From the NCBI RefSeq assembly GCF_024220515.1, contig NZ_JAMXOT010000296.1:1-34736 (forward strand): a stretch of DNA of 34,736 bases. The letters run 5' to 3'. The number at the start of each line of letters is the position of its first letter. Position 1 is the first letter of the stretch. Under the pieces are notes generated by a model. That model did not search any database, was not told where the DNA came from, and saw only the letters and a program-made list of their open reading frames with translations. This stretch comes from Oscillatoria sp. HE19RPO (GTDB taxonomy: Bacteria; Cyanobacteriota; Cyanobacteriia; Cyanobacteriales; Laspinemataceae). Below, piece after piece: positions 4,319 to 22,861 of this stretch. Made by a program: the position numbers and the translations under genes.

Positions 4319-5596
4319 GTGGATAAGTCCATTATTCAGTTAGTTGACGAGCTACCTACTGACAACATTACGGTAAAAGTGTTAAAGGCATTGGATTATT
4401 TGATGCCCGGTCAGTGGGATAATTTAGTTGGTTTTGACCAGAGTATTCGAGCCATTACCGGAGAAAGTGACCCGCAGGCTATACAAAAGATTCGCGATCG
4501 GGCTGTGGCTTTGTATCACGACCCGAAGCAAGGCTATCAGACGGCCATTAAACTTTATCAAACGATTGACCGCGCTGATGCAGCCTTAGCTACGGCAGCT
4601 TTAGCCAACAAAGTGGGAGAAAAAATCAGTTTTCTGTCATTTTTAAATAAAATGACGCCGAAAGCAGATACGACCCAAACCATTGATTTATTGCTGAAAG
4701 TTGTTGTTGAATTGATTGCTTACTGTAAACTAAATGGGTGGCCCAATCCTAATCCTCAACAATTTGCGGCTGCCTTGGCGAATACCTATCAAGATGCGGC
4801 TTTGATGCGGATGATGGCATTAGTTTGTATTGATGGTGTGTTGCCTCTTGGCCCCAATTTTCTAGGGAAAATTCACGAAGTGATGACCGGGAATGAGGCG
4901 AATTTAATCACGGGAAATCCTGTGTTTGTAGCGGTAAATAATTTTATCCCGGGAAATAGTCCTTCAGATAAAGTGGGGTTTATTAATCAGGGGTTTGAGG
5001 CGGTAGAAGGGTGGATGAACAACCTGGTGGCTAAAACGGGGGTGACGCCTCAATCGATTGTGCAAGGTTTGGGTAAGTTTATCCAAATTGCCGATGATAA
5101 TTTAGACTTTGTAGCGGCCTTTTTAGACCAAACTACAAATTATTATGAACATACCGGGATTCAAACTGTTGCCCGAAAATTGATTTTGGATGCTCAGGGT
5201 TCTATGAATTTAGGGACACTACCCGCAACGGGAACAACCTCAACACCCTCGGGTTATGCGGTGGGTCAAACGGTAGAAGTTTGGGATGGAGAGGAGGAGG
5301 ATTGGTATGAGGCAACGATTCTCAAAGTTAAGGATGATGAATACTTTGTACATTATGTGGGGTATGGTTCCTCGGAGGATGATTGGGTAGAGGAAGAAGA
5401 TGTGCGCGATCGCAATTATTCGCCATCGGATGACTATGATTATGCGATCGGTCAAAAGGTAAAAGTTTGGGATGAGGATGAGGAGGAATGGTACAGCGCC
5501 ATCATTGAGAAAGTTAAACGCAAGAAATGTTTTGTACATTATCTTGATTATGATTCCTCTCATGACGAATGGGTGGATAATGATGAGATTAGTTAA
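4319..5596 (+). CDS. Protein with two C-terminal Tudor-knot/chromo-barrel-like domains
   Basis: A 425-aa protein starting with GTG, preceded by GGTGAGGA at a normal distance. Residues 1 to about 300 are mostly helical and I do not recognise them. After a TTSTPSG-type linker, two similar ~50-residue acidic modules follow (about 312-360 and 373-425). Each has the pattern VGQ-V-VWD-EE-WY-A-I-KVK---FVHY-(G/D)Y-SS-D(D/E)WV, the signature of Tudor-knot/chromo-barrel domains. In eukaryotes these bind methylated peptides or nucleic acid; the bacterial role is unknown. The two modules are also similar at DNA level, so they arose by tandem duplication. A terminator-like hairpin follows. The binding partner is unknown. 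Confidence 0.85.
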   Translation: MDKSIIQLVDELPTDNITVKVLKALDYLMPGQWDNLVGFDQSIRAITGESDPQAIQKIRDRAVALYHDPKQGYQTAIKLYQTIDRADAALATAALANKVGEKISFLSFLNKMTPKADTTQTIDLLLKVVVELIAYCKLNGWPNPNPQQFAAALANTYQDAALMRMMALVCIDGVLPLGPNFLGKIHEVMTGNEANLITGNPVFVAVNNFIPGNSPSDKVGFINQGFEAVEGWMNNLVAKTGVTPQSIVQGLGKFIQIADDNLDFVAAFLDQTTNYYEHTGIQTVARKLILDAQGSMNLGTLPATGTTSTPSGYAVGQTVEVWDGEEEDWYEATILKVKDDEYFVHYVGYGSSEDDWVEEEDVRDRNYSPSDDYDYAIGQKVKVWDEDEEEWYSAIIEKVKRKKCFVHYLDYDSSHDEWVDNDEIS

Positions 5597-6984: not shown

Positions 6985-9456
6985 TCACCGAGTCGCCGAT
7001 TCGCCAATTAGGGTAAACAAGGCCCATTTTCTCACATCAGGATACTCTTGCATCGTTGCCAGCATCGCTTGTCTTAAAGCTACCGCCCGATCGCCAGTTT
7101 GGGGAAGTAGTCGATAAAACTCCTGCATCAATTGTGCGCTTGCCCGATCGTCGGTTTGCCATAACGAGACAATCACACTTTCGGCCCCGGCACCGATGAC
7201 GGCGCGAGATAATCCAATAATGCCATCGCCGGTAATGCTTCCTCCACCTGTACTGCAAGCACTCAACACCACCAACCCAGCATTCAACTCCAAGCGGATA
7301 ATTTCCTCAGAAGTGAGCAATCCGTCATCGCGATCGCTCGGTGCCAAGGCGATCGCCCCCAATAACCCCGACTCGCTAAAATCATCCAGTAACCCGTGAG
7401 TTGCCAGATGGACGATTCCCGCAGAACCCATCCGTTCTACCACCACCGTCTCGGTTGCCTCACTTCCGATTAACGGTTGAGTATTCAGCATCGCCGCAAT
7501 CGCAGTCGCTTCTTGTTCCGCAGCAGGTAAATTACCCAATCCCACTTCTGGTTCTCCCGGGTTTCTTGCAAAAATCGGCATCACGGGATTACCCACCACT
7601 AAAGCACCTGCGGTTTCCCTGGGGCGATCGCGTTTCGCTTGTCGAGCAATTTGCAAAACTTGAATCCCGGGGGATGTGAGAATCGTATGTCTTTCGATTA
7701 AGTAGCGATCGTTCTCATCCAGCAGCGCGGGAAACGGCACGAAAAACAACTCTTGGTGGGGAATAAATATCACTTTATCTTCAGGATTTTGGGGAAGTAA
7801 ATCCGCAATTGGTGCTATCAATAATTCGTGCAGTTGTTTTAAGTGTCTCGGGTAAATTTTTTTCTCAGGAATGCTGGGGAGGGTTTCTGTGATAAAAGAA
7901 CGACTGCCTCGCACCAATCCCGTTAACAGGAATTCCGGTTGCGCGTCGGTTTCTTCTCCGACCAAAAACGGGACTAAATTATCACGAAATCTTTCTAACT
8001 GGCTTAAATCCACTTCCCGAAACGTGATTTCACCTGTGGGTTTTACCACCCAAATGAACAAAACGGAATTTTTAGCGGAATTATCCCCAACAATTGAATA
8101 TTCAACCAATGTCGCATTTTGCTCTGCTGCGACTTGCTGAATGTCTGGAATGGTGGGGGGAGGAATTTGGCGGTCCGCAAATTCTTGTACCGCTTCTGGA
8201 GACAGCCGTTTAGCCATTAACTCCACAAAAGCCCGAGCGCGACCTCTTTCGGCCACGGTTAATGCTTTCTCGGCTTGATTTTGGGCAATTAATGCTTTTT
8301 GCAGCACGCCATAAGTCTGCCGATATTTATCAAAAATAGAGACTTTGTTGATATCGCTCAATCCTGGACGTAAGGATTCTAAAACATCAATGCCTGCATA
8401 TAATGTTTCCGTCGCTTCAGGAAGTTTCCCGGCTTCAAATAAGGCGACCCCTTTATTATTGAGGGTGACAGCCATTCCCGCTCGATTGCCGATAGTTTCC
8501 CGAATCTCTAAGGCGCGATCGTAGAAGTCTAAGGCTTGAGAATAGTCCCCCATCCGTCGATGAACTGAACCTAAATTGTTGAACGCTTGTCCGATAGAAT
8601 CTACCTCTCCAAGCTCAGTCATGATTGCCAATCCTTGCTGATAGGCTTGGATTGCTTGAGGATAATCGGCTAATTTTTCATGAATTGCGCCGATATTAAT
8701 CCAGGTTTGACCGATTCCTAGGGTATCTTCTACTTCGGTGGCGATCGCCAAACTTTTTTGGTAAAATTCCAGGGATTGGGAAAATTCACCGAGCGCATCA
8801 TAGGCGGCTCCAATATTGGCCAAAGCGATACCCATTGCAAACCGATCGTCCTCTTCCTCAAACAGAGATAGAGCGTTTTCAAATGAAGCAAGTGCCTTTT
8901 TCGGTTGTCCTAACTGTCTGTAAAGTTCTCCCATATTGGTAAGGATTACCGCTTCACCATATCGTTCCTGCTCCCCTTGGAGAATTGGCAAGGCTTGCTG
9001 ATAGTAATCGAGGGATTGGGGATAGTCAGCTAGAGATTGATAAACTGCACCGAAATTGACCAGAGTTTGTCCGATTCCCGAGGTATCATTAATGTCTTGA
9101 CGGAGGGTGAACGCTTGGTTTAGAAATTCCAACGCTTGGGGATAGTCACCGAGGATGCGATAGATGACAGCAATATCATTTAAAATCACCCCTTCTAGGT
9201 GGCGATCGGCCACTTCCCTCGCCATTGCCAAAGCGCGCTCAAACGTTGCCAGTGCCTCCTGAAACTGTCCGCGATCGGTCTGTTCATAACCCAGTTCATA
9301 CAATCGCCATGCTTCTTCAGCGAGACTTTCTTCCCCAGTTTGTGCCAATACCGGCAACAATCCAAGTTGAGGAGAAAGAAATTTGATAAACTGGATTTCA
9401 CCCAAAACAATAAACCAAACAAGGAAAAAGCAGGACGAGATATTTTTTAGACGCAT
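6985..9456 (-). CDS. Secreted TPR-CHAT (caspase-like) protein
   Basis: About 823 aa from the ATG at 9456, which begins a signal peptide (MRLKNISSCFFLVWFIVL). An upstream ATG at 9492 is possible, but its extra residues come from repeat-flanking sequence. Residues about 50-390 are many TPR units of roughly 40 residues (for example GDYPQALEFLNQAFTLRQDI). The C-terminal CHAT domain carries the caspase-like dyad: His687 in VHLATHGLLDD and Cys734 in VVLSACSTGGGS. It then has the usual GLSRAVIGAGAESVIVSLW segment. CHAT proteins are peptidases of the separase/caspase clan, often switched on through attached sensors. It is divergent from the sigma-factor gene at 9662 across a heptamer array. The substrate is unknown, and export would place it in the periplasm. 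Confidence 0.92.
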   Translation of the reverse strand: MRLKNISSCFFLVWFIVLGEIQFIKFLSPQLGLLPVLAQTGEESLAEEAWRLYELGYEQTDRGQFQEALATFERALAMAREVADRHLEGVILNDIAVIYRILGDYPQALEFLNQAFTLRQDINDTSGIGQTLVNFGAVYQSLADYPQSLDYYQQALPILQGEQERYGEAVILTNMGELYRQLGQPKKALASFENALSLFEEEDDRFAMGIALANIGAAYDALGEFSQSLEFYQKSLAIATEVEDTLGIGQTWINIGAIHEKLADYPQAIQAYQQGLAIMTELGEVDSIGQAFNNLGSVHRRMGDYSQALDFYDRALEIRETIGNRAGMAVTLNNKGVALFEAGKLPEATETLYAGIDVLESLRPGLSDINKVSIFDKYRQTYGVLQKALIAQNQAEKALTVAERGRARAFVELMAKRLSPEAVQEFADRQIPPPTIPDIQQVAAEQNATLVEYSIVGDNSAKNSVLFIWVVKPTGEITFREVDLSQLERFRDNLVPFLVGEETDAQPEFLLTGLVRGSRSFITETLPSIPEKKIYPRHLKQLHELLIAPIADLLPQNPEDKVIFIPHQELFFVPFPALLDENDRYLIERHTILTSPGIQVLQIARQAKRDRPRETAGALVVGNPVMPIFARNPGEPEVGLGNLPAAEQEATAIAAMLNTQPLIGSEATETVVVERMGSAGIVHLATHGLLDDFSESGLLGAIALAPSDRDDGLLTSEEIIRLELNAGLVVLSACSTGGGSITGDGIIGLSRAVIGAGAESVIVSLWQTDDRASAQLMQEFYRLLPQTGDRAVALRQAMLATMQEYPDVRKWALFTLIGESATR

Positions 9457-9486
9457 TTGAGTTATAGGAAACAGAGAATAGGGAAC

Positions 9487-9672
9487 TGTCATTGGTCATT
9501 TGTCATTTGTCCTTTGTGATTTGTCCTTTGGATGGTTGAATACTCAGAACAAACCAACAACCAATGACTAATGACAAATGACCAATGACAAATGACCAAT
9601 GACCAACGACCAATGACCAACGACCAATGACTAATGACCAACAACCAATGACCAACAACCAATGACCAACGA
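9487..9672. repeat. Bipartite, inverted heptamer array (array B)
   Basis: 9487-9532 holds GTCATTTGTCATTTGTC-type units and 9558-9672 holds the reverse-complement type (CAATGAC, AAATGAC, CAACGAC) in many tandem copies. The two arms could pair. The array lies between two divergent genes. Its last units include the ATG of the sigma-like gene at 9662. Confidence 0.85.
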
Positions 9673-10303
9673 CCCACTACAATCCCTCATTCAAGAGACT
9701 TGTCGTCACCCTCCCCAAACTGTCGAACGCCAGCGAGGATTGACTCAACTGTACCGGCTGATTGTCCAATCAGGCAAGCTTTGGCGAGAATATACTCCCT
9801 ATTATGAAGAAGCGTGGCAACAAACATGGCTGTATTTTTGCCTGAATCTATGCGAAGCAACCACCGCCAAAGATAAATATGACCCCGATCGCAGTCGGGT
9901 TACCACTTGGCTCAATTTTTACCTCAAGCAGCGACTCAAAGATCGTGCCATCAAAGCGCAACACCAGAAAAATCAACTGGTTTCAGCATCACAACCTGTT
10001 GATGACGACGACACCCTCAAGTTTTTAGATACCTTTGAGGCACCTCGGGATATTCCTCCGATACTCCAAGCGACTCGGGAATGGGTGGAAACTGACCCCA
10101 CCGGAGAATTGCAGGGGATCCAGGTTCGAGGTCGAAAAGATGTCACCTGTCAATTGTTAATTCGGCGACGGTTACCCCCAGAAACCTCCTGGGATGAACT
10201 TTCCGCAGAATTGGATTTGCCGGTTTCGACCCTCAGCAGCTTTTATCAGCGTAAATGTATGCCTCAATTGCGTAAATTTGGCGAATCCGAAGGATATCTA
10301 TGA
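9662..10303 (+). CDS. Atypical sigma-70-like factor of the DUF1822/CHASE2 locus
   Basis: A 213-aa protein. Residues about 45-110 resemble sigma region 2: EEAWQQTWLYFCLNL, then YDPDRSRVTTWLNFYLKQRLKD, the 'fdp...tWL..i..nrl.D' pattern of ECF-type factors. The last ~55 residues resemble region 4, with a helix-turn-helix around SWDELSAELDLPVSTLSSFY. The middle is divergent, so promoter recognition may be unusual. In cyanobacteria such genes are often followed by DUF1822 and CHASE2 genes, as here. The ATG lies inside the heptamer array and has no standard ribosome site. It is a candidate reader of the GCGTAAA-N15-CGATAGGTAA sites downstream (inference). Confidence 0.8.
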   Translation: MTNDPLQSLIQETCRHPPQTVERQRGLTQLYRLIVQSGKLWREYTPYYEEAWQQTWLYFCLNLCEATTAKDKYDPDRSRVTTWLNFYLKQRLKDRAIKAQHQKNQLVSASQPVDDDDTLKFLDTFEAPRDIPPILQATREWVETDPTGELQGIQVRGRKDVTCQLLIRRRLPPETSWDELSAELDLPVSTLSSFYQRKCMPQLRKFGESEGYL

Positions 10304-10324
10304 AGGGGAACAGATGAGTTGTGG

Positions 10325-10390
10325 GTGGTCCGTGGTCCTTCGTCGTTTGACTAAGGACAAATAACAACTAACTAAGGATAAATAACAAAT
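10325..10390. repeat. Degenerate inverted heptamer array (array C)
   Basis: The units switch orientation halfway: GGTCCGTGGTCCTTCGTC-type on the left and AAGGACAAATAACAA-type on the right. It fills the 85-bp gap between the sigma-like gene and the DUF1822 gene, and its last unit contains that gene's ATG. Confidence 0.65.
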
Positions 10391-11357
10391 GAAAAGTAAC
10401 CAAATTTCCGAATTAGAAAATTTTACCATACCGATGTTGATTGCTAGAACTTCGCGCCGCTTTGCGAAGCAGTTTGCACTTGAACAACCGAATCGGCAGA
10501 AAGCTGAACAAGTTTATTTTAATACCCTAGCGGTTTGCGTGGTGAAGGATTATTTGGAATGGATGGGAATTGCTACTCAACTGAGTGCGGCAGAAAGTTG
10601 GAATGCGATCGCTCGTTTAGGAAGCAATGTTGCTGATTTACCTGTGACGGGATTGGGACGTATTGAATGTCGTCCAATGCGAGAACATGAACCCACTTGT
10701 CACATTCCCCCGGAAGTTTGGTGCGATCGCCTGGGGTATGTGGTGGTAGAAATCCAAGACTCCCTGAAAGAAGCAACGATTTTGGGATTCATCAACCGGA
10801 TTGATTCCCAACAGTTACCTCTGAATCAGTTACAACCGATTGAAACCTTGCTAACCACCTTGGCAGAGTTGCGCCTTGGGGTTTCCTCTAACAATGCGAT
10901 CGCCTCCCAATCTCCTGTGGTGTTACTCACTCAATGGTTGCAAGGCTCTTTTTCCGAGTCTTGGCAATCATTTCAAACCATTTTTGGGGAAGAAACACTC
11001 GCGTATCATTTCCGAAATTCTCCCCGCGAAGGGGATGGGGGAGTGGAACGCGCCAAACTGATAGACTTAGAAATGCAGTTTGCCACCCAAGTGGTGGTGT
11101 TGTTGGTGGCACTCACCCCAGAACCCGATCGCATTGCCGTGAGAGTCCGACTCTATCCCCCCGATGGAGAAACTTATTTACCGCTAAATCTGAGATTGGC
11201 ATTGCTATCGCCAGAGGGGGAGGTTCTCCAAGAAGTGCGATCGCGCCGCCAGGATAACTACATCCAACTTCCCCGCTTTACGGGTGAACCCGGGGAACGG
11301 TTTTCTATCCAAGTCGGGCTAGAAAATGCCACAATTGTCGAAACCTTTGAAATTTAA
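10389..11357 (+). CDS. DUF1822 family protein
   Basis: A 322-aa soluble protein with the typical DUF1822 layout. The N-terminal half has the family segments ARTSRRFAKQFALEQPN, VYFNTLAVCVVKDYLEWMGI and GRIECRPM. The C-terminal beta-rich half ends in VRLYPPDGETYLPLNLRLAL and FSIQVGLENATIVETFEI. DUF1822 is cyanobacterial and of unknown biochemical role. It regularly sits between a sigma-like gene and a CHAT-CHASE2 gene, and here it is 12 bp from the latter, so the three are probably one transcript. The C-terminal part resembles a repeat-bearing adaptor more than an enzyme. No catalytic motif is visible. Confidence 0.88.
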   Translation: MKSNQISELENFTIPMLIARTSRRFAKQFALEQPNRQKAEQVYFNTLAVCVVKDYLEWMGIATQLSAAESWNAIARLGSNVADLPVTGLGRIECRPMREHEPTCHIPPEVWCDRLGYVVVEIQDSLKEATILGFINRIDSQQLPLNQLQPIETLLTTLAELRLGVSSNNAIASQSPVVLLTQWLQGSFSESWQSFQTIFGEETLAYHFRNSPREGDGGVERAKLIDLEMQFATQVVVLLVALTPEPDRIAVRVRLYPPDGETYLPLNLRLALLSPEGEVLQEVRSRRQDNYIQLPRFTGEPGERFSIQVGLENATIVETFEI

Positions 11358-11369
11358 TCCGGTTTTCCC

Positions 11370-13658
11370 TTGTCAAAAGTAGTCGTTATTAATCTGGGAT
11401 ATGGCAATTTGCTCGGTGGGTTCCCCAATGTTACCGCGCTACTTTGGGAACCGGAAAATCCGCGTCCGCTGAAATTCATCGGTGCTTTACCTCCTGCGAC
11501 CGAATTAGAGGCAATTTATCGGCGGTGGCAACTGATTTATCAAGCACTTTATCGGACTCCCGGATGGCGTCCTCGCATCAAAATCGACCGGGAAGATATT
11601 ACGAATGTTTCTCAAGTTGAGTTTGCGGATATTTGTAGTCAATATGTTCAACTGATTGATGAATGGTTGAATGCGGAGGGATTTAGAAATATCGATCGCC
11701 AGTTGAGATCGCATCTCCACCATTCCGATGAAATCCAAGTGATTCTGGAAACCGATGACGATCGCCTGCGTCATTTACCCTGGCATTTCTGGAAGTTCTT
11801 GTCCGATTATCCGAAAGCAGAACTGGCGCTGAGTGCGCCTCAATATCAACGGGTGGAAAAATCTCATCACAGAGAGCAGATGAGAATTTTAGCGATTTTG
11901 GGAGATAGCAATGGTATTGATATCGCCGATGATCGCTCTACTTTGTCCGAACTTTCCGATGCAGAAACGGTGTTTTTGGTGGAACCCTCCCGTCAGGAGG
12001 TGGATGAACAGTTGTGGGACGATCGCGGTTGGGATATTTTATTTTTTGCGGGTCATAGTGAAAGTCAAGAAGAGGGAAACCGAGGATTACTCGCCATCAA
12101 TCCCAGGGATAAAATTGGTATTTCTCATCTGAAATCGGCCCTGAAAACGGCAATTGCTCGCGGATTGCAGTTGGCTATTTTTAATTCTTGCGATGGGTTG
12201 GGATTAGCGAAAGAACTGGCAGATTTACAGATTCCTCACATTATTGTTATGCGAGAATCGGTTGCCGATGGGGTGGCGCACCTATTTTTGGTAAATTTTG
12301 TTAAAGCATTTTCTAGCGGTTCTTCCTTTTATTTAGCGGTGCGACAAGCGCGGGAACGGTTGCAAGGATTAGAAGATCAATTTCCTTGTGCGAGTTGGTT
12401 GCCGGTGATTTGTCAAAATCCTGCGGAAGTACCGATGCAGTGGCGATCGCAACCTGTAGTAGAACCTCAGCAATCCTCTAAAGTTCGCGATCGCTGGGTG
12501 GGGTTCATCCCATTGGCAGTCACCTTGATTCTGATTCTGATCCGCCAGTTGGGACTATTGGAAGGATGGGAACTCAAAGCGTATGACCACTTCCTGCGAT
12601 CGCGTCTTCCAGAGCCCCCAGACTCCCGGATTTTAATCGTGGAAATTCCCGAATCCGATATACAATCGAAGCAAGAATATCCGATTTCTGATGCCACATT
12701 AACCCAACTGTTGCAAAAATTAGAACTGCATCAACCGAGAGCAGTCGGCTTAACCCTCTATCGAGATTTACCCGTTCCTCCGGGTCATGGGGAATTAAGG
12801 GTTCAGATGCAGCAGCAATCGAATCTATTTGCCATCTGTAGCTTTGATAAATCTCATCGAGAATCAGTAGGAGCGCCGGAGGGAATCCCCACCAACCAAT
12901 TAGGATTTGATGATATACTCATCGATTCAGATGGGTTGGTGCGTCGTCATCTCTTGTTTATGAGAGCTTCTTCCGATTGTAACACGGGCTTTTCCTTGAG
13001 CTTTCAATTAGCCCAAAAATATCTAGGGGAGGAGAATATTTTACCGGACAATGAAGGCAATAAAAACAAGCCATTGAAACTGGGTAAAACAATTTTAAAT
13101 CCCCTGGAACTGAATACCGCAGGATACAAAACCCTCACCGACGGAGGCTGGTATGTGATGTTAAATTATCGTCCTTTTCCCATTGCCAGAACTCTCACCC
13201 TGACCGAAGTCTTAAATGGCGAATTTAACCCCAATTGGGTGAGAGACCGAATTGTTCTCATCGGGATGACCAGTCGAGTCCAGCCTAACGCTTTTTTCAC
13301 CCCCTACGCCATCGGCAAATCTCCCTCGGAAAAAGTACCCGGAGTGATGCTTCAAGCCCAAAAAGTGAGTGAGATTATCAGTGCAGCACTGGATGGACGT
13401 CCCATGATTCAAGTATGGAGTGGGTGGAAAGAACTGCTCTGGATTGGACTGTGGTCAGGGATAGGAAGTGCGATCGCCTGGTGCATTCGAGGGAGACTCC
13501 GCCGAGTCAGTGCCATCCCCCTGGCGATCGCACTTCTCTATCTCCTCTGCTATCTGCTCTTCCTCCACAGCACCTGGGTTCCCCTCATCCCCCCAGCATT
13601 GGCATTAGTCATTAGTCATTTGTCGTTTGTCCTTTCTCAAGGGACTAAAGACAAGTGA
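11370..13658 (+). CDS. CHAT-CHASE2 membrane protein
   Basis: A 762-aa protein starting with TTG 12 bases after the DUF1822 stop; no better in-frame start is seen. The N-terminal ~370 residues are a CHAT peptidase-like domain with the dyad His229 (FFAGHSESQEEG) and Cys274 (IFNSCDGLGL). A membrane segment (FIPLAVTLILILI) leads to a CHASE2 extracellular sensor domain (AYDHFLRSRLPEPPDSRILIV ... VRDRIVLIGMTS). The end has about three more membrane helices. The layout suggests a periplasmic sensor controlling a cytoplasmic peptidase-like domain. The last residues (ALVISHLSFVLSQGTKDK) are read from a heptamer array, so the repeat has grown into, or replaced, the original C-terminus. Confidence 0.92.
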   Translation: MSKVVVINLGYGNLLGGFPNVTALLWEPENPRPLKFIGALPPATELEAIYRRWQLIYQALYRTPGWRPRIKIDREDITNVSQVEFADICSQYVQLIDEWLNAEGFRNIDRQLRSHLHHSDEIQVILETDDDRLRHLPWHFWKFLSDYPKAELALSAPQYQRVEKSHHREQMRILAILGDSNGIDIADDRSTLSELSDAETVFLVEPSRQEVDEQLWDDRGWDILFFAGHSESQEEGNRGLLAINPRDKIGISHLKSALKTAIARGLQLAIFNSCDGLGLAKELADLQIPHIIVMRESVADGVAHLFLVNFVKAFSSGSSFYLAVRQARERLQGLEDQFPCASWLPVICQNPAEVPMQWRSQPVVEPQQSSKVRDRWVGFIPLAVTLILILIRQLGLLEGWELKAYDHFLRSRLPEPPDSRILIVEIPESDIQSKQEYPISDATLTQLLQKLELHQPRAVGLTLYRDLPVPPGHGELRVQMQQQSNLFAICSFDKSHRESVGAPEGIPTNQLGFDDILIDSDGLVRRHLLFMRASSDCNTGFSLSFQLAQKYLGEENILPDNEGNKNKPLKLGKTILNPLELNTAGYKTLTDGGWYVMLNYRPFPIARTLTLTEVLNGEFNPNWVRDRIVLIGMTSRVQPNAFFTPYAIGKSPSEKVPGVMLQAQKVSEIISAALDGRPMIQVWSGWKELLWIGLWSGIGSAIAWCIRGRLRRVSAIPLAIALLYLLCYLLFLHSTWVPLIPPALALVISHLSFVLSQGTKDK

Positions 13659-13683
13659 CCAAGGACAAAGGACCAAGGACCAA
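13604..13683. repeat. Inverted heptamer array overlapping a CDS end (array D)
   Basis: The left arm has ATTAGTCATTAGTCATTTGTC-like units and encodes the end of the CHAT-CHASE2 protein. The right arm has GACAAGTGACCAAGGAC-like units after the stop codon. The two arms are inverted with respect to one another. Confidence 0.7.
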
Positions 13684-13764
13684 TAGACCTCTTGCAAAAT
13701 TCTTGAAAGCCCCCCTTCTTAAGGGGGGTTGGGGGGATTAATCCGGATTTTTGCAAGAGGTCTA
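13684..13764. repeat. 81-bp MITE-like element
   Basis: Perfect 16-bp terminal inverted repeats (TAGACCTCTTGCAAAA and its complement) flank an inner CCCCCCTT/AAGGGGGG hairpin at 13710-13728. There is no coding capacity. It lies between the CHAT-CHASE2 stop and the DUF928 promoter and could also weaken read-through. Confidence 0.75.
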
Positions 13765-13782
13765 ATAACAATTGACAACTTT

Positions 13783-13814
13783 GCGTAAATTTATCCCTAA
13801 ACTGCGATAGGTAA
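13783..13814 (+). promoter_or_regulatory. Alternative-sigma promoter candidate, site 1 (DUF928)
   Basis: GCGTAAA (13783-13789), 15 bases, then CGATAGGTAA (13805-13814), 34 bases before the DUF928 start codon. A strong GGAGGAG ribosome site follows at 13834-13840. The same two boxes with exactly the same spacing occur at 14781, 16729 and 23091. The GGTAA part recalls promoters described for cyanobacterial group-3 sigma factor SigF (from memory). That transcription starts here is inferred. Confidence 0.65.
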
Positions 13815-13847
13815 ACAGAATGTCAACCTGTATGGAGGAGTAGAACC

Positions 13848-14642
13848 TTGTCACATCCTTTGGGGAAACCATCGAACCTGGCGAAATTGCCGATCGCGAT
13901 CGGTCTGATTGTCTTCACCGGCATCGTACCCGTCACGAGAGTTTACGGCACATCTGGCAGTGAATTACGCCCGGACATTGGTCAAGTGCCATCACCCAAC
14001 TCAGCGATCGCCACCGTATTTGAACCCCCCGATCCGGACCCGCCAGAGGGTCGCGAAGGTTCTGGGAGTCGCACCTCATGTCCGCCAGTGGATCAACCCT
14101 TGACCGGATTAATCGCCTCTCAAGTCAATTATACCCTCTCCGGACATCCCACATTCTGGTTCTACGTGCCGTATCCTTCCAATCTGCCGCGTGAAGTAGA
14201 GTTCGTCCTTCTGGATGAACAAAGAACCGAAGTCTATAAAACCGTCGTCCCGATTTCCGATACTCCAGGGATTGTCAGTTTCCGCTTACCGGAAAACATC
14301 CCTGCCTTAGAAGTCGGCAAACAATACTTGTGGCAATTCTCCTATCGATGCAATCCCAGAATTCGCGCCGAAGATGACTATGTAGAAGGAGTAGTCCAAC
14401 GAGTTGCAGCAGATAGCACACTCATCAGTCAGCTAGAAGCCGCAACAACACCGATGCAGCGCGTGGAACTCTATGCAGCGAATGGGTTGTGGCATGAAAC
14501 CCTCACAACCCTCGCGGAACTGCGCCGGGATAATCCAGGGAATGCAGAAATTGCCGCTGAATGGACAGAACTTCTCGAATCCATTGGATTGGGTCATCTG
14601 GCAAATGAGGCGATCGGGGGTTGTTGTAGTCGATTGCAGTAG
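13848..14642 (+). CDS. DUF928 family secreted protein
   Basis: A 264-aa protein with a TTG start nine bases after GGAGGAG; the good ribosome site fixes the start. It begins with a signal-like segment (LPIAIGLIVFTGIVPVTRVYG). The core is the DUF928 pattern: GHPTFWFYVPYPSNLPREVE, VVPISDTPGIVSFRLPE, and QYLWQFSYRCNPR. A C-terminal helical part follows (TLAELRRDNPGNAEIAAEWT). DUF928 proteins are cyanobacterial, exported, of unknown function and usually neighbours of CHAT/CHASE2 genes. This one has its own promoter motif, separating it from the upstream operon, and is probably the periplasmic partner of the CHASE2 sensor (inference). Confidence 0.9.
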   Translation: MSHPLGKPSNLAKLPIAIGLIVFTGIVPVTRVYGTSGSELRPDIGQVPSPNSAIATVFEPPDPDPPEGREGSGSRTSCPPVDQPLTGLIASQVNYTLSGHPTFWFYVPYPSNLPREVEFVLLDEQRTEVYKTVVPISDTPGIVSFRLPENIPALEVGKQYLWQFSYRCNPRIRAEDDYVEGVVQRVAADSTLISQLEAATTPMQRVELYAANGLWHETLTTLAELRRDNPGNAEIAAEWTELLESIGLGHLANEAIGGCCSRLQ

Positions 14643-14646
14643 GGGG

Positions 14647-14760
14647 GTTGGTCGTTGGTCTTATGTCACTGGTCACTGGTCACTGGTCACTGGTCCCTTG
14701 ACCCACACCAAATGACAAATAACAAATGACAAATGACAAATGACCAACGACCAACGACCA
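14647..14760. repeat. Bipartite inverted heptamer array (array E)
   Basis: The left arm has repeated CACTGGT units (perfect over about four copies) and the right arm has repeated AAATGAC/CAACGAC units in the opposite sense. It directly precedes promoter-motif site 2. Confidence 0.85.
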
Positions 14761-14780
14761 AAAACTTTTTTTCCCAATTT

Positions 14781-16631: not shown

Positions 16632-16709
16632 TGGTCATTTGTCATTTGTCATTTGTCGTTGGTCATTTGTCCAGGGACCAGGGACCAGGGACCAGGGACC
16701 AACGACCAA
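16632..16709. repeat. Bipartite inverted heptamer array (array F)
   Basis: The left arm has TCATTTG-type units. The right arm has four perfect CCAGGGA units and CAACGAC units in the opposite sense. It directly precedes the leader element at 16710. Confidence 0.85.
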
Positions 16710-17122: not shown

Positions 17123-17476
17123 ATGAATAGTGAATCCAGGGTGAAAAACCTGTTAAATCCGTCCCTAGAACAGCTAATCGACGAAATCCACGCCGTCAAT
17201 CACGGTTGGAAAGTCGCCTTAGCGTTTGGGGATATTCCTGCTTTGGCGAAATCTTTGCAAGAAATGAAAACGCGGTTACAGGTGCGACTGTTGCGCCAGT
17301 ATGCCCCCGATCGCGTTTATCTGGCATTAGATACGGAAACCGCCAGTGAAGAACCCCTGTATGGATTGCGACTGAGGGAACCAGTCGCCGGACACACTGA
17401 TGCAGCACATCTGCCGGTGCGAGTCGCCAAGGAGCATCTCTCACCCGAACGCATAGAACGATTTGGAGAACTGTAA
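17123..17476 (+). CDS. Small protein of unknown function, first gene of the zor operon
   Basis: 117 aa, soluble, starting with ATG. The N-terminal part is helical (PSLEQLIDEIHAVNHGWKVA, LAKSLQEMKTRLQVRLLRQY), followed by RVYLALDTETASEEPLYG and a polar C-terminus. I recognise no family. It is 15 bp upstream of zorA in the same direction and directly downstream of the duplicated leader, so it is probably co-transcribed with zorA. It could be an accessory or regulator of the motor complex. It resembles no ZorE, ZorF or ZorG feature that I can name. Confidence 0.75.
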   Translation: MNSESRVKNLLNPSLEQLIDEIHAVNHGWKVALAFGDIPALAKSLQEMKTRLQVRLLRQYAPDRVYLALDTETASEEPLYGLRLREPVAGHTDAAHLPVRVAKEHLSPERIERFGEL

Positions 17477-17491
17477 CATAGGATACTTATC

Positions 17492-19594
17492 ATGGTGAAT
17501 GGTTTATTTATTCTCATCATTATTGGAGCCGCGATCGCCGCAGGTATATTTGAAGTAGTGGCGATCGGACACTATTACTCATACGAGTGTGGGCCAACCG
17601 CTAAGGCGATCGACTATCTCAAAAAATTCCGAAAAACGGGGGGCAATGGCCTCAACCTCGATGAGAATATGAAGAGATGGTTCCAGCGCCATTTTGAGGG
17701 AGAATGCTGGGGAAATGTGTTTGTCCCGAAGGAAGAGGGGGATAGCTTTGTCATGATCTCCTCCCCCACTGTAGTGAGCAAACCCATACCGCGTGGCCCG
17801 GTGTATTTTGCCCCCACTTTATTGACCGCATTGGGCGTTTTGGGAACTTTTTGGGGAATTTACTCGGGGTTACAAGGAGTGAATCTCAACGCGATTCAAG
17901 AAACTGAAACCCTGCTGAAAACCAGTACCGAACTGCTGGCTGGAATGAAAGTCGCTTTCTCCACTTCTTTGTGGGGGCTGGGCAGTTCCAGTGTGTTTAT
18001 GCTATTCCTCGCTGTTGGAGGATCGGTTCGGCAACGGCGTCGGGATAATTTGCGTTCTGAATTGAGCAAAGTTGCTTTTCTGCTGACTCCAGGACGAATT
18101 TTGGCGCGGATGACACCGGGAGCAACTGGAGGAGAAAGCAATCTGACTGCTGCGGCGATTGGTCAAGCTGTGGCGAAAGAAATGCGATCGGTTTTGCGAT
18201 CGGAACTAACGCCTATTTTCGAGCCTTTAACGAACCTTACTCCAGAGGCGATCGGACAGGCAACCGGAGCACAACTAAATCCCGCCCTCAATTCCATGAA
18301 AGCGGAATTATCCAGCATTCGGGAATTGCAACAAAAACAAGGTCAAGCGGTAGATTATTTGGTCACGCGACTGCGCGAAGAATTAATCGAACCCGTTGTC
18401 CAACGTCTTGATGAAACCGCCAAACTCACCAAGGAAGCATCCGAGGCAGTTAAAGAACTGAAAACTGCTATGGCAGAGATTACTGAAAAATTGACTGAGA
18501 CAGTAGAAAACTTTCATAAAGTACAAAAAGAGACCCTCGAAGATTTAAAAATATTTGCTGGGGATTTAAAAGGAATTCTTGTCCAATTCCGGGATGAAAC
18601 TAGAGGAGTCTTAGAATCGGTTGCCGAAGAAATCAAGCGAGCGGTTGCCGAAAGTATCACAGGAATGGAAGCACAGCGAAAAGCATTTGAAGAGAGTGCT
18701 GCACAAGCGGCTGCAACTTTCGTAGGTATCCGAGTAGAATTAGCAAAATCTCTAGATAAACAAGCCGAACTCCAGAAAGATATGCTGAAAGGAGTCGAAG
18801 CGAGTACCCGGAAAATTATCGAAGAGGCCAACCAAATCTTTAGGGCTCAATCTGAAACTCTGGTGACAATTGGTCGGGAAGCATCTGCATTAATGAACGA
18901 GGCGGCAGCCAACCTAACTGCAACCTTGAGCGGTATAGATGAGAGTCTGAAAAAAACTCGCATAACCGTGCAGGAAGAGTTAGAGAAATTCCGCATCGAA
19001 TACCAAACTGCACTCACGAAATTCTTTGAAGACCAAAACAATCTCCTAGAAGGAACTCTCGGCAAGCAGCGAGAAGCATTAGAAGGGGTTATCGCCCAAC
19101 TTAAAAAAGTCTTCCTAGAAGATGCGAAAGAAATGGAGAGAGCGATTAAAGAAAGTATGTTGTCGATTACAGATACGGCTAAGATAGTGTACAACCTAGC
19201 GAACAAAACTGGGTTAACCTCCGCAGAGCGTGTGAAACAGTTCACAGAAATGTTCGGTGAATTGGGTAGCCAAGCAAACCAGATAGAGAGTGCCTATCAA
19301 AACATGATTGAGAACTTTGATAAATCTCTCAACAAATCCCTAAACCTGATGGGAGAAAAATTGAATGATGCGCTCCAAATTGGCAACGAGCAACTTGCGG
19401 AATATTTGACAAAAGCCAATGCATCGTACACAAAGGCTATTAAAGAAGGAGATGTCGCTGCGGCTGAAGTTTGTCAAAAACTTCACCAAACGGCTCAGAG
19501 CTTGAACCAAAGTACCCACGATCTGATGGATGTATCTCATTACTTAGTTGCATCGGCTAAGGAACAGGAAAATGGAAAGGGACGTGGTAATTAA
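17492..19594 (+). CDS. zorA: ZorA-like MotA/TolQ/ExbB-type channel protein with long coiled-coil tail
   Basis: A 700-aa protein. The first membrane helix (LFILIIIGAAIAAGIFEVVAI, about 4-28) is followed by a loop, then two core helices typical of the MotA/TolQ/ZorA family: YFAPTLLTALGVLGTFWGIY (about 107-130) and a segment around TSLWGLGSSSVFMLFLAVGG (about 157-178) after the LLAGMKVAFST motif. Residues about 205-690 are an extended coiled coil rich in E, K, A and L (for example ETVENFHKVQKETLEDLKIF). This is the architecture of ZorA, whose pentamer surrounds a ZorB dimer in the inner membrane and sends a long tail into the cytoplasm to signal phage attack. The TAA overlaps the ATG of zorB (TAATG), so the two are translationally coupled. 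Confidence 0.9.
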   Translation: MVNGLFILIIIGAAIAAGIFEVVAIGHYYSYECGPTAKAIDYLKKFRKTGGNGLNLDENMKRWFQRHFEGECWGNVFVPKEEGDSFVMISSPTVVSKPIPRGPVYFAPTLLTALGVLGTFWGIYSGLQGVNLNAIQETETLLKTSTELLAGMKVAFSTSLWGLGSSSVFMLFLAVGGSVRQRRRDNLRSELSKVAFLLTPGRILARMTPGATGGESNLTAAAIGQAVAKEMRSVLRSELTPIFEPLTNLTPEAIGQATGAQLNPALNSMKAELSSIRELQQKQGQAVDYLVTRLREELIEPVVQRLDETAKLTKEASEAVKELKTAMAEITEKLTETVENFHKVQKETLEDLKIFAGDLKGILVQFRDETRGVLESVAEEIKRAVAESITGMEAQRKAFEESAAQAAATFVGIRVELAKSLDKQAELQKDMLKGVEASTRKIIEEANQIFRAQSETLVTIGREASALMNEAAANLTATLSGIDESLKKTRITVQEELEKFRIEYQTALTKFFEDQNNLLEGTLGKQREALEGVIAQLKKVFLEDAKEMERAIKESMLSITDTAKIVYNLANKTGLTSAERVKQFTEMFGELGSQANQIESAYQNMIENFDKSLNKSLNLMGEKLNDALQIGNEQLAEYLTKANASYTKAIKEGDVAAAEVCQKLHQTAQSLNQSTHDLMDVSHYLVASAKEQENGKGRGN

Positions 19595-20352
19595 TGAACG
19601 ATTTTTCTGAGTTTGAAATGGAGGGGGAAATCCTAGAGGAGCAAGACTCTGGGGTTTGGCTCTCCATTGGGGATTTGATGTCAGGACTGCTGATGTTTTT
19701 CGCGCTGCTGTTTGTTACGACTCAACTGCAATTGCATCATAAATATGAGGATGTGCAGCGATTAGAGGGGGAATTGCAAGCCAAAACGAAAGAGGTGGAT
19801 GTCCTCAAAACTGAGTTGGAAGCCAAAATAGAAGAGTTGGATAAGTACCAAAAAGCATTTCAGGATTTACCCCTGATTCTGCTGGCTCAATTGGATAACC
19901 AGATGGGAGGTTCTGACCTCTCAGTGGATCCAAAAACTGGGGATGTGAGTATTGGCGATCGCATTCTGTTCGATTTAGGCAGTGCAGAACTCAAACCCGA
20001 GGGAAAAGCCTTTCTCCAACAGTTTATTCCCGCTTACAGCCAAATCATTTTCTCAACCAATGACTTTAGAACCATGATCACTCGGGTGATTATTGAAGGT
20101 CATACCAGTTCCGATGGTGATGAATCCAGCAACATGGAATTAAGTTTGCGACGTGCGCTATCGGTGACGGACTATATTTCCTCGCAAATGTCTTTTCCAA
20201 ATCAGGAAAACTTTACAACCAAAATTCTAGCAGCCGGTCGAGGGGAAATTGATGCAGAAAAAACCACTGACAATCCCAGCGATCGCAAAGTCGTGTTCCG
20301 TTTCCAGCTAAAACCCCCAGATTGGCAGCAACTCTTAAAACCCGCACCCTGA
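19594..20352 (+). CDS. zorB: ZorB-like MotB/OmpA protein, first copy with coiled-coil insert
   Basis: A 252-aa protein. After an acidic N-terminus (EFEMEGEILEEQDSGVW) there is one membrane helix with the proton-carrying aspartate: LSIGDLMSGLLMFFALLFV, Asp27. Next come about 45 residues of charged heptads (KYEDVQRLEGELQAKTKEV ...), then an OmpA-like peptidoglycan-binding domain with FDLGSAELKPEG, RVIIEGHTSSDGD and MELSLRRALSVTDYI. It should form the stator core inside ZorA and anchor to the cell wall. The start overlaps the zorA stop by one base. A paralogue lacking most of the coiled coil follows at 20485. Confidence 0.92.
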   Translation: MNDFSEFEMEGEILEEQDSGVWLSIGDLMSGLLMFFALLFVTTQLQLHHKYEDVQRLEGELQAKTKEVDVLKTELEAKIEELDKYQKAFQDLPLILLAQLDNQMGGSDLSVDPKTGDVSIGDRILFDLGSAELKPEGKAFLQQFIPAYSQIIFSTNDFRTMITRVIIEGHTSSDGDESSNMELSLRRALSVTDYISSQMSFPNQENFTTKILAAGRGEIDAEKTTDNPSDRKVVFRFQLKPPDWQQLLKPAP

Positions 20353-20360
20353 AGGGTGGG

Positions 20361-20397
20361 GCTATACGGACAAAGCCCGCCTGCGCGGGCTCATAGC
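20361..20397. repeat. Nested hairpin between the two zorB genes
   Basis: GCTAT (20361-20365) pairs with ATAGC (20393-20397), enclosing AGCCCGC (20374-20380) that pairs with GCGGGCT (20385-20391) around a CTGC loop. It fills part of the 132-bp gap between zorB copies and may reduce read-through or mark an inserted small repeat. Confidence 0.6.
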
Positions 20398-20484
20398 GAA
20401 AAGTGAATTTTTATAGCCGGATTTGGTATTAATTAACCCGACTCTAGCTAATCCACTCAGGAAGAGAACAGGAAACCCAAGCCA

Positions 20485-21159
20485 ATGAGCGATTTTTATG
20501 AATTTGAAATGGAAGGGGAAATTTCAGAGGAGCAAGACTCTGGGGTTTGGCTTTCCATTGGCGATTTAATGTCAGGACTGCTGATGTTTTTTGCCTTATT
20601 GTTCATCACCGTGATGGTCCAACTCAAACAGTACCAAGAAGCGTTCGATAAACTGCCTCTTGTCATCCTCAATACCCTCCGTCAAGAAGTCCCTGGGGGA
20701 GATAAATTACAAGTCGATCCGAGAACTGGGGATGTCAGCATTCCCGATGCGATTTTGTTCGATGAAGGGAGCGCCGAACTCAAACCCGCTGGCGAACAAT
20801 TTCTACTCAGTTTCATTCCCGTTTACAGCAACGTCATTTTCTCCAACGATGAATTTGATAACATGATTACTCGCGTAATTATCGAAGGACACACCAGTTC
20901 CTTTGGAGACGAACGCGAAAATATGCAACTGAGCTTGCAACGCGCTTTGTCTGTTTCGGATTACATTTCCTCCCTAAATTTTCCCACTCAATCTCAATTC
21001 AAATATAAGGTATTGGCGGCTGGTCGAGGGGAATTAGATGCGAATCAAACCCTCGATTCTCCTGGCGATCGCAAAGTCGTGTTTCGGTTCCAACTCAGAC
21101 CCCCAGATTGGGGAAAGATGTTCAGCGTACCCTCATCCTCAACGGAGACTCAACCATGA
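20485..21159 (+). CDS. zorB: ZorB-like MotB/OmpA protein, second copy with short stalk
   Basis: A 224-aa paralogue of the preceding gene. The first 45 residues are almost the same (EFEMEGEISEEQDSGVW, then LSIGDLMSGLLMFFALLF with Asp27), and the coding DNA there is clearly similar. The ~30-residue charged coiled-coil insert is absent, so the OmpA-like domain (FDEGSAELKPAG, RVIIEGHTSSFGD, MQLSLQRALSVSDYI) would sit closer to the membrane. The duplication suggests either a mixed ZorB dimer or alternative stators for different envelope distances (inference). Its stop codon overlaps the zorC start by four bases (ATGA). Confidence 0.92.
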   Translation: MSDFYEFEMEGEISEEQDSGVWLSIGDLMSGLLMFFALLFITVMVQLKQYQEAFDKLPLVILNTLRQEVPGGDKLQVDPRTGDVSIPDAILFDEGSAELKPAGEQFLLSFIPVYSNVIFSNDEFDNMITRVIIEGHTSSFGDERENMQLSLQRALSVSDYISSLNFPTQSQFKYKVLAAGRGELDANQTLDSPGDRKVVFRFQLRPPDWGKMFSVPSSSTETQP

Positions 21160-22799
21160 ATTTTAACTTTCGCCCTTTAGAATTGCCACCCCTTCCCCAA
21201 CCGAAAGCGCAAGAGTTAATTAATCTGGCAAACGGAACCGATAAAAGTGGCCCGATCGCACCACCTCAGTTACCGCCGAATATACCGATAGGTCAGGGAA
21301 GAATGCCGCGCAGTCTCGATGATATTTTAGCGGATATTGAGAATGGAACCGGCGAACAGGTGACCATTTTGGAGTGGGTTTACTTGTTTTATGCCAAAGA
21401 AACTTGGGATGAGCAGCAAGGCAGCGATCGGGCTAAATCCACATCGGCAGCGATTTGGAAATTTGCTCTGTCTGACGAGAAGATTAAAGACCGATTATTT
21501 TGGCGATTGGCGATTTATTATAGCCAGGGTAATCAGAATCAGAGAAGGACTAAAAAACGGCCAGTCCTGAAAAATCTGGAGTCATCGGAAAATTCGGAAG
21601 TTGAGAGCGATCGCGAAAAGGTAGAACAGAGTAAAATCAGCGATCGGCCTGTGTTGCCTGTGTCTTTAGTGCATTGCTTCCCTAATTTTGCTTCAGAGTT
21701 TAAAAAGACCGACCTCTTACCCGTAGACATTCTCTTAGCACTGGTAGACAATCAAGGCAATCGACAAATTGCCTCCTGGAGCTTCCAAAATTCAATCACC
21801 CCCAAAAAACTCTTAGAAAAAGCCCGCTTACCTAAGTCTCTAGGTTCAAAACACGGGATATTTATCGAGATTATTAAATATTTTATTAATACCGGGCCCA
21901 GTCGCAATCTCAAGGAGGCAAACTTGATAATCAAGTGCCTCGAAGACATGGGAAGGGAACCGCAAATTCAGGGGGTACAGCATCTACTGACAAAGGTTTC
22001 CACAGAAATTGCCGGTCAGTTTCCGATTCTAGTCAATTGGGTACAGCAACACTATGGCATCGCGAGTGACGGTACTCGTACTCGCTGGAGTGAATTATCC
22101 CAACGGGCAAAAACTGCGTTACAAGATTGGATTGGGGCGCTAAGTTATGGTTATTTCGTGAAATTAGTCCAGATATTATTAGATAAACTGGATCTGCCGG
22201 GTTGGGAACGAAACCAGCTAGAACGTCGGAGGGAATTCTGGTCTAATTATAGCGATCGCTTTGAACGACTTCGGATTTTGTTACCCCAGTCCTCCCAAAA
22301 GGCAACCCAAGAGGCGATCGGCAGTGAATTTGAGCATCAAGATATCAGTATTCTCCAGGAAGATGGCAGCGACCCCACCGAAGTTTGCATCTTTGACTTT
22401 GGACATTGCTGCATTGTGGAATTCTTCCGAGGTACAGGGAGTGAAACTCGCATCTTCAATGCTCAAGATTATCCCGATATTAAAACTAAGCTTTTTCAAT
22501 CTCCCACCCTGTCTTTAAAACGGCTGCGCTACCTCGGCGGAGAAATCCACGACCACAAATATTTGTGGCAAGCCTCTTGTGAAAAATTACTCAGAAACCG
22601 AAATATATATCCGAATGAAGGAACTCAATATTTTAAAGGATTGCATAAAAACTATAGCCAATACAACCGCGAAACCGGACTGCCAGAACCTTCACCACGC
22701 AAACAAGAAGACCGAGAAAATGAATTAAAACGCTGGGAAAAAGACATGAGAGAAATTAAAATAGAGGCTAGTTTGTTTTGTCGTCAATTGGAGAGTTGA
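21156..22799 (+). CDS. zorC: ZorC-like EH-signature protein
   Basis: 547 aa from the ATG at 21156, chosen because ATGA overlaps the upstream stop; an ATG at 21108 would overlap zorB by 52 bases. The N-terminus is proline-rich. The middle is helical, with RREFWSNYSDRFERLRILL. The C-terminal part fits the EH-signature family: a beta hairpin CIFDFGHCCIVEFFRG with Glu422, followed by IHDHKYLWQASCEKLL with His465, His467 and Trp471. ZorC of type I Zorya has this domain and is described as a DNA-binding effector partner. The order zorA-zorB-zorB-zorC supports the call. The usual helicase-nuclease ZorD does not follow. Confidence is good for the EH family and moderate for orthology. Confidence 0.82.
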   Translation: MNFNFRPLELPPLPQPKAQELINLANGTDKSGPIAPPQLPPNIPIGQGRMPRSLDDILADIENGTGEQVTILEWVYLFYAKETWDEQQGSDRAKSTSAAIWKFALSDEKIKDRLFWRLAIYYSQGNQNQRRTKKRPVLKNLESSENSEVESDREKVEQSKISDRPVLPVSLVHCFPNFASEFKKTDLLPVDILLALVDNQGNRQIASWSFQNSITPKKLLEKARLPKSLGSKHGIFIEIIKYFINTGPSRNLKEANLIIKCLEDMGREPQIQGVQHLLTKVSTEIAGQFPILVNWVQQHYGIASDGTRTRWSELSQRAKTALQDWIGALSYGYFVKLVQILLDKLDLPGWERNQLERRREFWSNYSDRFERLRILLPQSSQKATQEAIGSEFEHQDISILQEDGSDPTEVCIFDFGHCCIVEFFRGTGSETRIFNAQDYPDIKTKLFQSPTLSLKRLRYLGGEIHDHKYLWQASCEKLLRNRNIYPNEGTQYFKGLHKNYSQYNRETGLPEPSPRKQEDRENELKRWEKDMREIKIEASLFCRQLES

Positions 22800-22861
22800 G
22801 ATGGGGCTATTGAAACCGGGGAAACTTTCTAAAGTCTCGGGTGTGTGGCAAAGATTATGGT

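Follow-up and report, generated by a model that had tools for sequence, protein, structure and literature searches.

The contig NZ_JAMXOT010000296.1 of the cyanobacterium Oscillatoria sp. HE19RPO (assembly GCF_024220515.1) is 34,736 nucleotides long, and this whole stretch is referred to here as the window. Positions 6985-14642 of the window are occupied by a five-gene cassette in which a minus-strand gene for a TPR-CHAT protein is divergent from a plus-strand series that encodes, in order, a sigma-like factor, a DUF1822 protein, a CHAT-CHASE2 protein (hereafter the protease-sensor) and a DUF928 protein. An earlier note on this DNA had listed the same five adjacent genes, and the open reading frames (ORFs) are indeed in place, with Pfam matches for all products except the 213-residue sigma-like protein. 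The features are as follows.

6985-9492, minus strand: TPR-CHAT protein with an N-terminal hydrophobic segment, predicted to be secreted (Pfam, hydropathy; 45 of 81 loci)
Same gene, minus strand: CHAT domain, residues 549-830, with His699 (codon 7396-7398) and Cys746 (codon 7255-7257)
9487-9674, no strand: divergent intergenic region between the TPR-CHAT and sigma genes, mostly heptamer tandem repeats
9662-10303, plus strand: putative divergent two-domain sigma factor of 213 residues, sigma-2/sigma-4 arrangement (profile, AlphaFold2 (AF2) model)
10389-11357, plus strand: DUF1822 protein with an N-terminal alpha/beta region and a C-terminal Ig-like sandwich, presumed partner of the sigma factor
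11370-13658, plus strand: CHAT-CHASE2 protease-sensor, whole gene (Pfam)
11370-12443, plus strand: constant N-terminal module of the protease-sensor (EACC2-like region and CHAT), residues 1-358
12054-12056 and 12189-12191, plus strand: codons of the protease-sensor dyad, His229 and Cys274
12495-12569, plus strand: first transmembrane segment of the protease-sensor, residues 376-400 (hydropathy)
12522-13469, plus strand: CHASE2 sensor domain, residues 385-700 (Pfam)
13503-13640, plus strand: C-terminal transmembrane segments of the protease-sensor, residues 712-757 (hydropathy)
13848-14642, plus strand: DUF928 protein with an N-terminal hydrophobic segment, predicted to be periplasmic or secreted (Pfam, hydropathy; 66 of 81 loci)

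In the TPR-CHAT protein Pfam recognized the CHAT domain at an E-value of 2.4e-66 together with TPRs, DUF1822 and DUF928 were matched at 1.5e-77 and 2e-60, respectively, and the protease-sensor matched CHASE2 at 2.5e-61 and CHAT at 6.8e-12. Against a cut-off of 24 bits, the two CHAT domains (PF12770) scored 224.5 bits (TPR-CHAT) and 45.9 bits (protease-sensor). The intact His/Cys dyads that had been claimed for both domains were found as His699/Cys746 and His229/Cys274, and both are conserved: among homologues longer than 500 residues the two columns are filled in 40 of 41 TPR-CHAT proteins and in 82 of 83 protease-sensors, the single exception in each case being a gap. The hydrophobic stretches of the protease-sensor at residues 376-400 and 712-757 fit a topology in which CHAT lies inside and CHASE2 outside the cell, while an N-terminal hydrophobic segment occurs in 42 of 46 TPR-CHAT and 53 of 66 DUF928 homologues (residues 18-40 and 9-34 of the window proteins). 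The proposal that one CHAT domain is outside and the other cytoplasmic thus agrees with hydropathy, as a prediction. When solved structures were searched by sequence, the protease-sensor found no relative at E 0.01, and the best of the 60 matches listed for TPR-CHAT aligned to its TPR part. In one member of the window's group, an Arthrospira locus (L079), the protease-sensor is split across two ORFs.

The distribution of the cassette was assessed in 81 loci, comprising the window and the best 80 of 540 protease-sensor relatives in named genomes; many of these loci are truncated by contig ends, and the choice of query biases the sample towards the CHASE2 type. DUF1822 was present in 71 loci, a sigma gene of either of the two types described below in 62, DUF928 in 66, TPR-CHAT in 45, a two-partner-secretion (TPS) exoprotein in 26 and its TpsB partner in 4. 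The 42 loci outside the window's group that have at least 8 kb on either side (full flanks) included 37 with DUF1822, 33 with sigma, 37 with DUF928, 26 with TPR-CHAT, 20 with TPS, and 30 with TPS or TPR-CHAT. Median gaps along the series sigma, DUF1822, protease-sensor and DUF928 were 6, 28 and 34 bases (n = 62, 65 and 62), as measured from mechanical ORF starts and with intervening ORFs possible. In 12 genomes (at most 10 contigs each), 22 of 54 DUF1822 genes had a DUF928 gene no more than 10 kb away, whereas 500 random placements, with each genome treated as one circle, predicted 1.3. Excluded before these counts were one DUF1822 row (the second half of a split gene in G149) and seven short fragments, four of DUF928 and three of TPS, of which four fell below the cut-off; this left 54 of 55 DUF1822, 87 of 91 DUF928 and 136 of 139 TPS rows. 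The cassette is a conserved unit and not a chance assembly, as judged from sequence. The protease-sensor profile found matches in 163 of the 194 genomes of the class; this count considered no more than five candidates in each genome, and it may include other CHAT proteins among its weak matches. A typical cyanobacterial cassette is also borne by a record titled as a Crocinitomicaceae (Flavobacteriales) metagenome-assembled genome (L084), which is probably a misbinned contig.

The core of the cassette is of a kind that has been predicted before. In their main text Kaur, Iyer, Burroughs and Aravind (2021, eLife; PMC8195603) describe EACC2 proteins, in which a constant alpha+beta domain and a caspase are followed by a variable C-terminal part, CHASE2 among the variants, and report that most EACC2 loci without TRADD-N also hold an extracytoplasmic function (ECF) sigma gene and a DUF1822 gene. 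The window protein likewise has a constant N-terminal region, a caspase-like domain with the conserved dyad and a CHASE2 C-terminal part, with sigma and DUF1822 genes beside it (9662-11357), and 61 sigma-DUF1822-protease trios were found in the 81 loci. Among five protease-sensor paralogues of the Oscillatoria genome, all invariant columns except one fall within residues 3-358, and the C-terminal part is CHASE2 in three and unlike CHASE2 in two. Since the three genes match EACC2 loci and the paralogues share the division into constant and variable parts, the core belongs to this known predicted kind; the match was judged by architecture and neighbours, the window domain being set against the published EACC2 by description only. 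In contrast with the window, the terms 'DUF928' and 'hemagglutinin' do not occur in that main text (figures and source data aside), and DUF1822 is named there a TPR protein (PMC8195603), whereas the model of the window DUF1822 has no TPR array. No TRADD-N family turned up in general Pfam scans of the window proteins, although no search aimed at it was made. The main text of Kaur et al. also already proposes the sensor-caspase-sigma idea for such a core (PMC8195603). Thus, of the earlier description of the cluster as recurrent in cyanobacteria and without known function, the first part holds, whereas for the second it must be noted that a description of loci of this kind, as a prediction, dates from 2021.

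The 213-residue sigma protein matched neither Pfam nor NCBIfam. Its 22-row profile, however, matched ECF sigma factors among solved structures, the best being RpoE at E 0.0017, and four of the eight matches up to E 1 were ECF sigmas aligned over the same region. The AF2 model has a mean pLDDT of 80.9, and of the 50 rows listed by a Foldseek search with this model, 49 are, to judge from title or mnemonic, either sigma factors themselves or complexes that contain one (a presumption in the case of row 12, an RNA-guided transcription complex), with none below E 0.001 and with TM-scores below 0.5 over the whole chain. By modelled fold, what had been called an atypical sigma factor looks like a divergent two-domain sigma factor with sigma-2-like and sigma-4-like parts. 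A second, longer type (about 400 residues and more) occupies the same position in 41 loci; it was recognized by Pfam as Sigma70_r4 at 1.1e-6 in the one protein scanned, and its profile matched SigF at 1e-7. Comparison of the short and long profiles gave a weak match (probability 2.4).

The AF2 model of DUF1822 (mean pLDDT 85.5), with its N-terminal alpha/beta region and C-terminal Ig-like sandwich, gave no Foldseek match below E 0.001; the C-terminal region reached Z-scores of up to 7.7 against Ig-like and other sandwich domains, which is within the range of common arrangements. No N-terminal hydrophobic segment was present in any of 73 DUF1822 or 64 sigma proteins, and the one internal segment of the window DUF1822 that rises barely above the hydropathy threshold (224-242) is placed in strands by the model. 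The sigma factor is of the short type in 20 of the 61 trios and of the long type in 41, and the length of DUF1822 follows the type, being 307-366 residues with short (n = 20) and 372-434 residues with long sigmas (n = 41). Mapped onto quick trees without a shuffle test, sigma type requires a single change in the case of DUF1822 but four in that of the protease-sensor; distances of DUF1822 correlate with those of sigma at 0.62 and 0.70 and with those of the EACC2-CHAT part at 0.45, the values coming from different locus sets. Organism orders are unevenly split between the sigma types, four of the short-sigma trios being from Nostocales, an order otherwise of the long type. We read these data as indicating that sigma and DUF1822 may travel as a pair that is joined to different protease-sensors and, because sigma type changes once against four times on the two trees, that DUF1822 is the likeliest partner of the sigma factor.

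The outer partners were examined in the same way. At two loci (L058 and L085) the genes for sigma, DUF1822, protease-sensor, DUF928, TpsA, TpsB and TPR-CHAT follow one another on one strand. In the 12 genomes, DUF1822 genes with DUF928 within 10 kb had a TPS gene within 20 kb in 15 of 22 cases, compared with 3 of 32 for those without DUF928 (Fisher p 1.4e-5, neighbouring copies within one genome not being independent), and 40 of 87 DUF928 genes were within 10 kb of TPS against 3.4 expected. The Oscillatoria genome itself has 20 TPS-domain matches outside the cassette, 13 of which have a CHAT domain within 10 kb, compared with an expectation of 2.2. For seven of these 13 the TPS match lies in an ORF equal in length to that of the CHAT match on the same contig, and the two are thus one fused ORF. 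These single ORFs with TPS and CHAT domains, of 1475-2887 residues, are on contigs C301, C98, C454, C149, C4, C62 and C140, and from their sequences seem to be exoproteins bearing a caspase-like domain. A TpsB-like region is found C-terminally in a TPS-domain ORF (L007:16420-19998 and L009:2-3694), that is, as a fused two-partner system. The protease-sensor loci found in the Oscillatoria genome number five; the three with CHASE2 have DUF928, and two of these also TPS, while the two without CHASE2 (L008 and L011) have neither within the stretch read. On this pattern DUF928, secreted TPR-CHAT and TPS exoproteins appear to go with the CHASE2 subtype.

Taken together, the operon-like order and short gaps, the dyad retained in 82 of 83 homologues, the sigma-like fold, the coupling of sigma with DUF1822 and the link to TPS may be explained by a transmembrane caspase-sigma switch for surface and secreted factors, a reading to which we assign somewhat less than even odds (a probability of about 0.45). 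Its basis in sequence is a predicted cytoplasmic CHAT domain that a membrane helix connects with an outer CHASE2 domain, with DUF1822 and sigma directly upstream in one apparent operon. A ligand on CHASE2 would activate the inner CHAT, which would then cut or release DUF1822, or cut itself; the sigma factor, otherwise held by DUF1822, would be set free and would turn on the cassette and its surface-exposed products. In many relatives these products would be a TPS exoprotein and TPR-CHAT, and the latter could process or guard the exoprotein outside the cell. Beyond the predicted membrane topology these steps, proteolysis of DUF1822 included, are ones that we infer. To this extent the view of the cluster as a caspase-like signalling unit that has a sigma factor of its own is supported as a reading of the sequence. 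A more specific version, in which the caspases form an inside-outside pair and the sensor frees sigma from DUF1822, which would be a novel type of partner for it, so as to control a secreted adhesin-like exoprotein and an extracellular protease, is doubtful. The partners, a second and secreted protease and often a large surface protein, point to cell-surface control rather than phage defence. What is added here to the core already predicted in print is the surface-secretion context, the pairing of sigma with DUF1822 and a family-limited slot for Zorya genes, considered below.

Several observations weigh against the switch. TPR-CHAT is absent from 36 of the 81 loci and from 16 of the 42 full-flank loci outside the window's group, 12 of which have neither TPS nor TPR-CHAT. 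The window cassette lacks a TpsA (PF05860) or TpsB gene, none of the 10 loci of the window's group has TPS in the cassette, and for this group the plainest candidate targets would be TPR-CHAT, DUF928 and TPS genes elsewhere in the genome. DUF928 also pairs with TPS without DUF1822 (40 of 87 genes are near TPS and only 23 of 87 near DUF1822, both within 10 kb), and the TPS link is thus possibly owed to DUF928 alone. No DUF1822 was within reach in 10 of the 81 loci, and nine have DUF1822 but no recognized sigma, although one of these (L017) ends at the sigma position. At five of these nine loci (L051, L056, L082, L087 and L091) the sigma position directly upstream of DUF1822 is taken by an unassigned gene family (cluster 19, about 480 residues, split in L087); the protein of L091 had no Pfam match, and the family is perhaps a third sigma type. 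The correlations and trees on which the sigma-DUF1822 pairing was read include species history. Finally, upstream of the sigma, TPR-CHAT and DUF928 genes no promoter-like dyad was clearly more frequent than in shuffled sequences when spaced 4+4 dyads were counted in 250 upstream bases with eight shuffles per set. The best dyad of the long sigma type, which is A/T-rich, was found in 9 of 32 sequences against a shuffle maximum of 7, and the remaining sets gave 5 of 17 against 4, 7 of 30 against 6 and 9 of 50 against 7; no candidate for a shared sigma promoter of the cassette genes was retained.

It could be argued that two separate systems merely adjoin, an inner EACC2-kind unit of sigma, DUF1822 and protease-sensor and an outer surface unit of DUF928 and TPR-CHAT, with or without TPS, that shares its neighbourhood. 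In keeping with this, 9 of the 14 DUF928 genes of the Oscillatoria genome are within 10 kb of a CHAT domain and only 3 of 14 are beside a protease-sensor, the two EACC2 loci without CHASE2 show no DUF928 or TPS, and TPR-CHAT distances correlate weakly with those of EACC2-CHAT (0.33) and DUF928 (0.34). However, DUF928 follows the protease-sensor closely (the 34-base median in 62 loci), and CHASE2 distances show a correlation of 0.67 with those of TPR-CHAT; we consider such independence rather unlikely. Within the core itself, the scheme of Kaur et al. offers a different order of events, in which sensing leads the caspase domain to cleave the protein that carries it, DUF1822 serves purely as a scaffold and sigma acts later. 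Activation by autopeptidase action is proposed for EACC2 systems in their main text (PMC8195603), and a constant N-terminal part followed by a variable C-terminal part fits a protein built for cutting between them. The exchange of the sigma-DUF1822 pair against the protease-sensor (one change versus four) fits a sigma-DUF1822 complex better than a sigma-protease one, and self-cleavage with DUF1822 as a scaffold is in our judgement improbable.

A role in defence was suggested by what lies behind DUF928. PADLOC identified ZorA (8.8e-222), two ZorB (2.3e-74 and 1.2e-71) and ZorC (5.6e-174) at 17492-22799, and the candidate defence system reported after the cluster is therefore present, separated from it by a vWA/PEP-CTERM-like gene (15534) and by a small gene (17123). 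ZorD, a further component of Zorya type I, was not found among the 10 window proteins scanned with PADLOC; sacsin-like proteins are found instead. The stretch 17123-31376 thus holds a Zorya-like set in which ZorB is present twice and, after it, two sacsin-like proteins, of which the second has a NO VEIN domain at its C-terminus. The Zorya genes of L140-L142 are followed instead by an ORF with a DnaK-like start. ZorC, a single ORF in the window, consists of two overlapping ORFs in L015 (17712-19464) and L139 (reverse complement, 12889-14602), split at the same place with the same frame offset, which may reflect a shared frameshift or a two-gene form. Within the window's family the DUF928 anchor was found in 10 of 14 genomes, one of which (G197) has a contig that ends after the small gene that precedes ZorA elsewhere. 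Zorya stands behind DUF928 in six of the nine readable genomes (the window, G195, G201 (L015), G203, G204 and G205 (L019)); in several of them ZorA or ZorC is divided between two ORFs, and two have a single ZorB. Prokaryotic viperin accompanies it in three of the six, in G203 (L018) by scan (2.5e-96) and in G204 and G205 by homology. Of the three readable genomes without Zorya, two (G196 and G198, the latter read as L017) carry UvrD-type helicases in the slot and one (G194, L020) carries neither.

Outside the window's group, no member of the ZorA cluster was found in 71 loci, a search that distant ZorA and genes past contig ends would escape. PADLOC was also run, at E 1e-25, on 100 of the 193 neighbour proteins outside the group and on 100 of 109 control proteins from 20 regions picked at round coordinates. 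The neighbours matched 81 models and the controls seven. Among the 25 neighbour models listed, mad3 was matched by nine members and the others by one each (methyltransferase models, Cas12f and PDC-S03); the control models, with one member each, included HmaB, PDC-S17, DpdF, BrxH and IetA. A rescan of 10 of the 100 neighbours found that the nine mad3 matches are members of one gene family, another protein of which is an ABC exporter by Pfam, and the mad3 matches were dropped as defence genes. The excess consists mostly of this one broad model, which matches ABC transporters, and of many models matched by probably one or two methyltransferases; a methyltransferase-type motif is present in 2 of 100 neighbours versus 3 of 100 controls. 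On our reading of the 25 listed models, defence-like proteins number about four on either side, and there is no clear defence enrichment among the neighbours by PADLOC, a comparison that is not decisive. The test of linkage to defence loci thus has a divided outcome, with Zorya recurring within the window's family and no clear linkage seen beyond it, and we read the position behind DUF928 as a variable slot, more probably a defence hotspot of one family than a functional tie. Defence as the role of the cluster is not supported, its recurrent partners elsewhere being DUF928, secreted TPR-CHAT and TPS exoproteins. That CHASE2 senses damage done by phage to the envelope, whereupon CHAT and sigma would set off a suicidal or protective response together with Zorya, is very improbable: although Zorya lies directly downstream in those six family genomes, with viperin in three, and the main text of Kaur et al. 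treats EACC2 among conflict and death systems (PMC8195603), neither the 71 outside loci nor the PADLOC comparison bears it out, and L016 (= G196) keeps the five-gene cassette with a helicase in the slot, so that cassette and Zorya are not tied.

The proposed caspase-sigma switch has parallels in known systems. In Craspase, gRAMP acts with the TPR-CHAT protein Csx29, Csx30 and a sigma factor, and protease action of CHAT frees sigma. In contrast, no Cas effector was present among the 10 window proteins scanned by PADLOC, the CHAT domain next to sigma is here in a membrane sensor, and the window TPR-CHAT has a secretion-type N-terminus. Cell-surface signalling such as PUMA3 of Pseudomonas provides sigma-controlled two-partner secretion with the sigma gene in the TPS locus, and relatives such as L058 similarly hold sigma and TPS genes in one locus. 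The cassette differs in having a caspase-like sensor and DUF1822 beside sigma; no TonB receptor or membrane anti-sigma was noticed at the cassette, although no search was aimed at either. In Nostoc punctiforme a CHASE2-DUF928-WD40 gene cluster, for which signal transduction was suggested in 2017, shares with the window a CHASE2 protein adjoining DUF928 in a cyanobacterium, whereas sigma and DUF1822 are not mentioned and 'CHAT' does not occur in the main text of that report (PMC5587647). In the open-licence literature, nothing was found that joins a CHAT domain with CHASE2 in cyanobacteria, with filamentous hemagglutinin or with two-partner secretion, nor was anything found on HetF with CHAT, caspase and PatU3.

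Two further features of the window may be recorded. Heptamer tandem repeats (AATGACC-like) occupy many intergenic gaps, among them the divergent TPR-CHAT/sigma promoter region, where their extent varies among relatives; the sites are 297-361, 9487-9674, 10357-10405, 13599-13683, 14665-14761, 16634-16708, 23034-23070 and 31545-31592. At 4319-5596 a protein with Tudor-knot/Agenet-like domains is encoded, domains that we consider unusual in bacteria.

The usual interpretation of caspase-like proteins in bacteria is that they serve death or immunity. The core of this cassette is very common in cyanobacteria, and no experiment on it was found in the open-licence literature. If the cassette does place secreted surface proteins under sigma control, this would provide a function for DUF1822 and DUF928, and caspase-to-sigma signalling would become testable in laboratory cyanobacteria.

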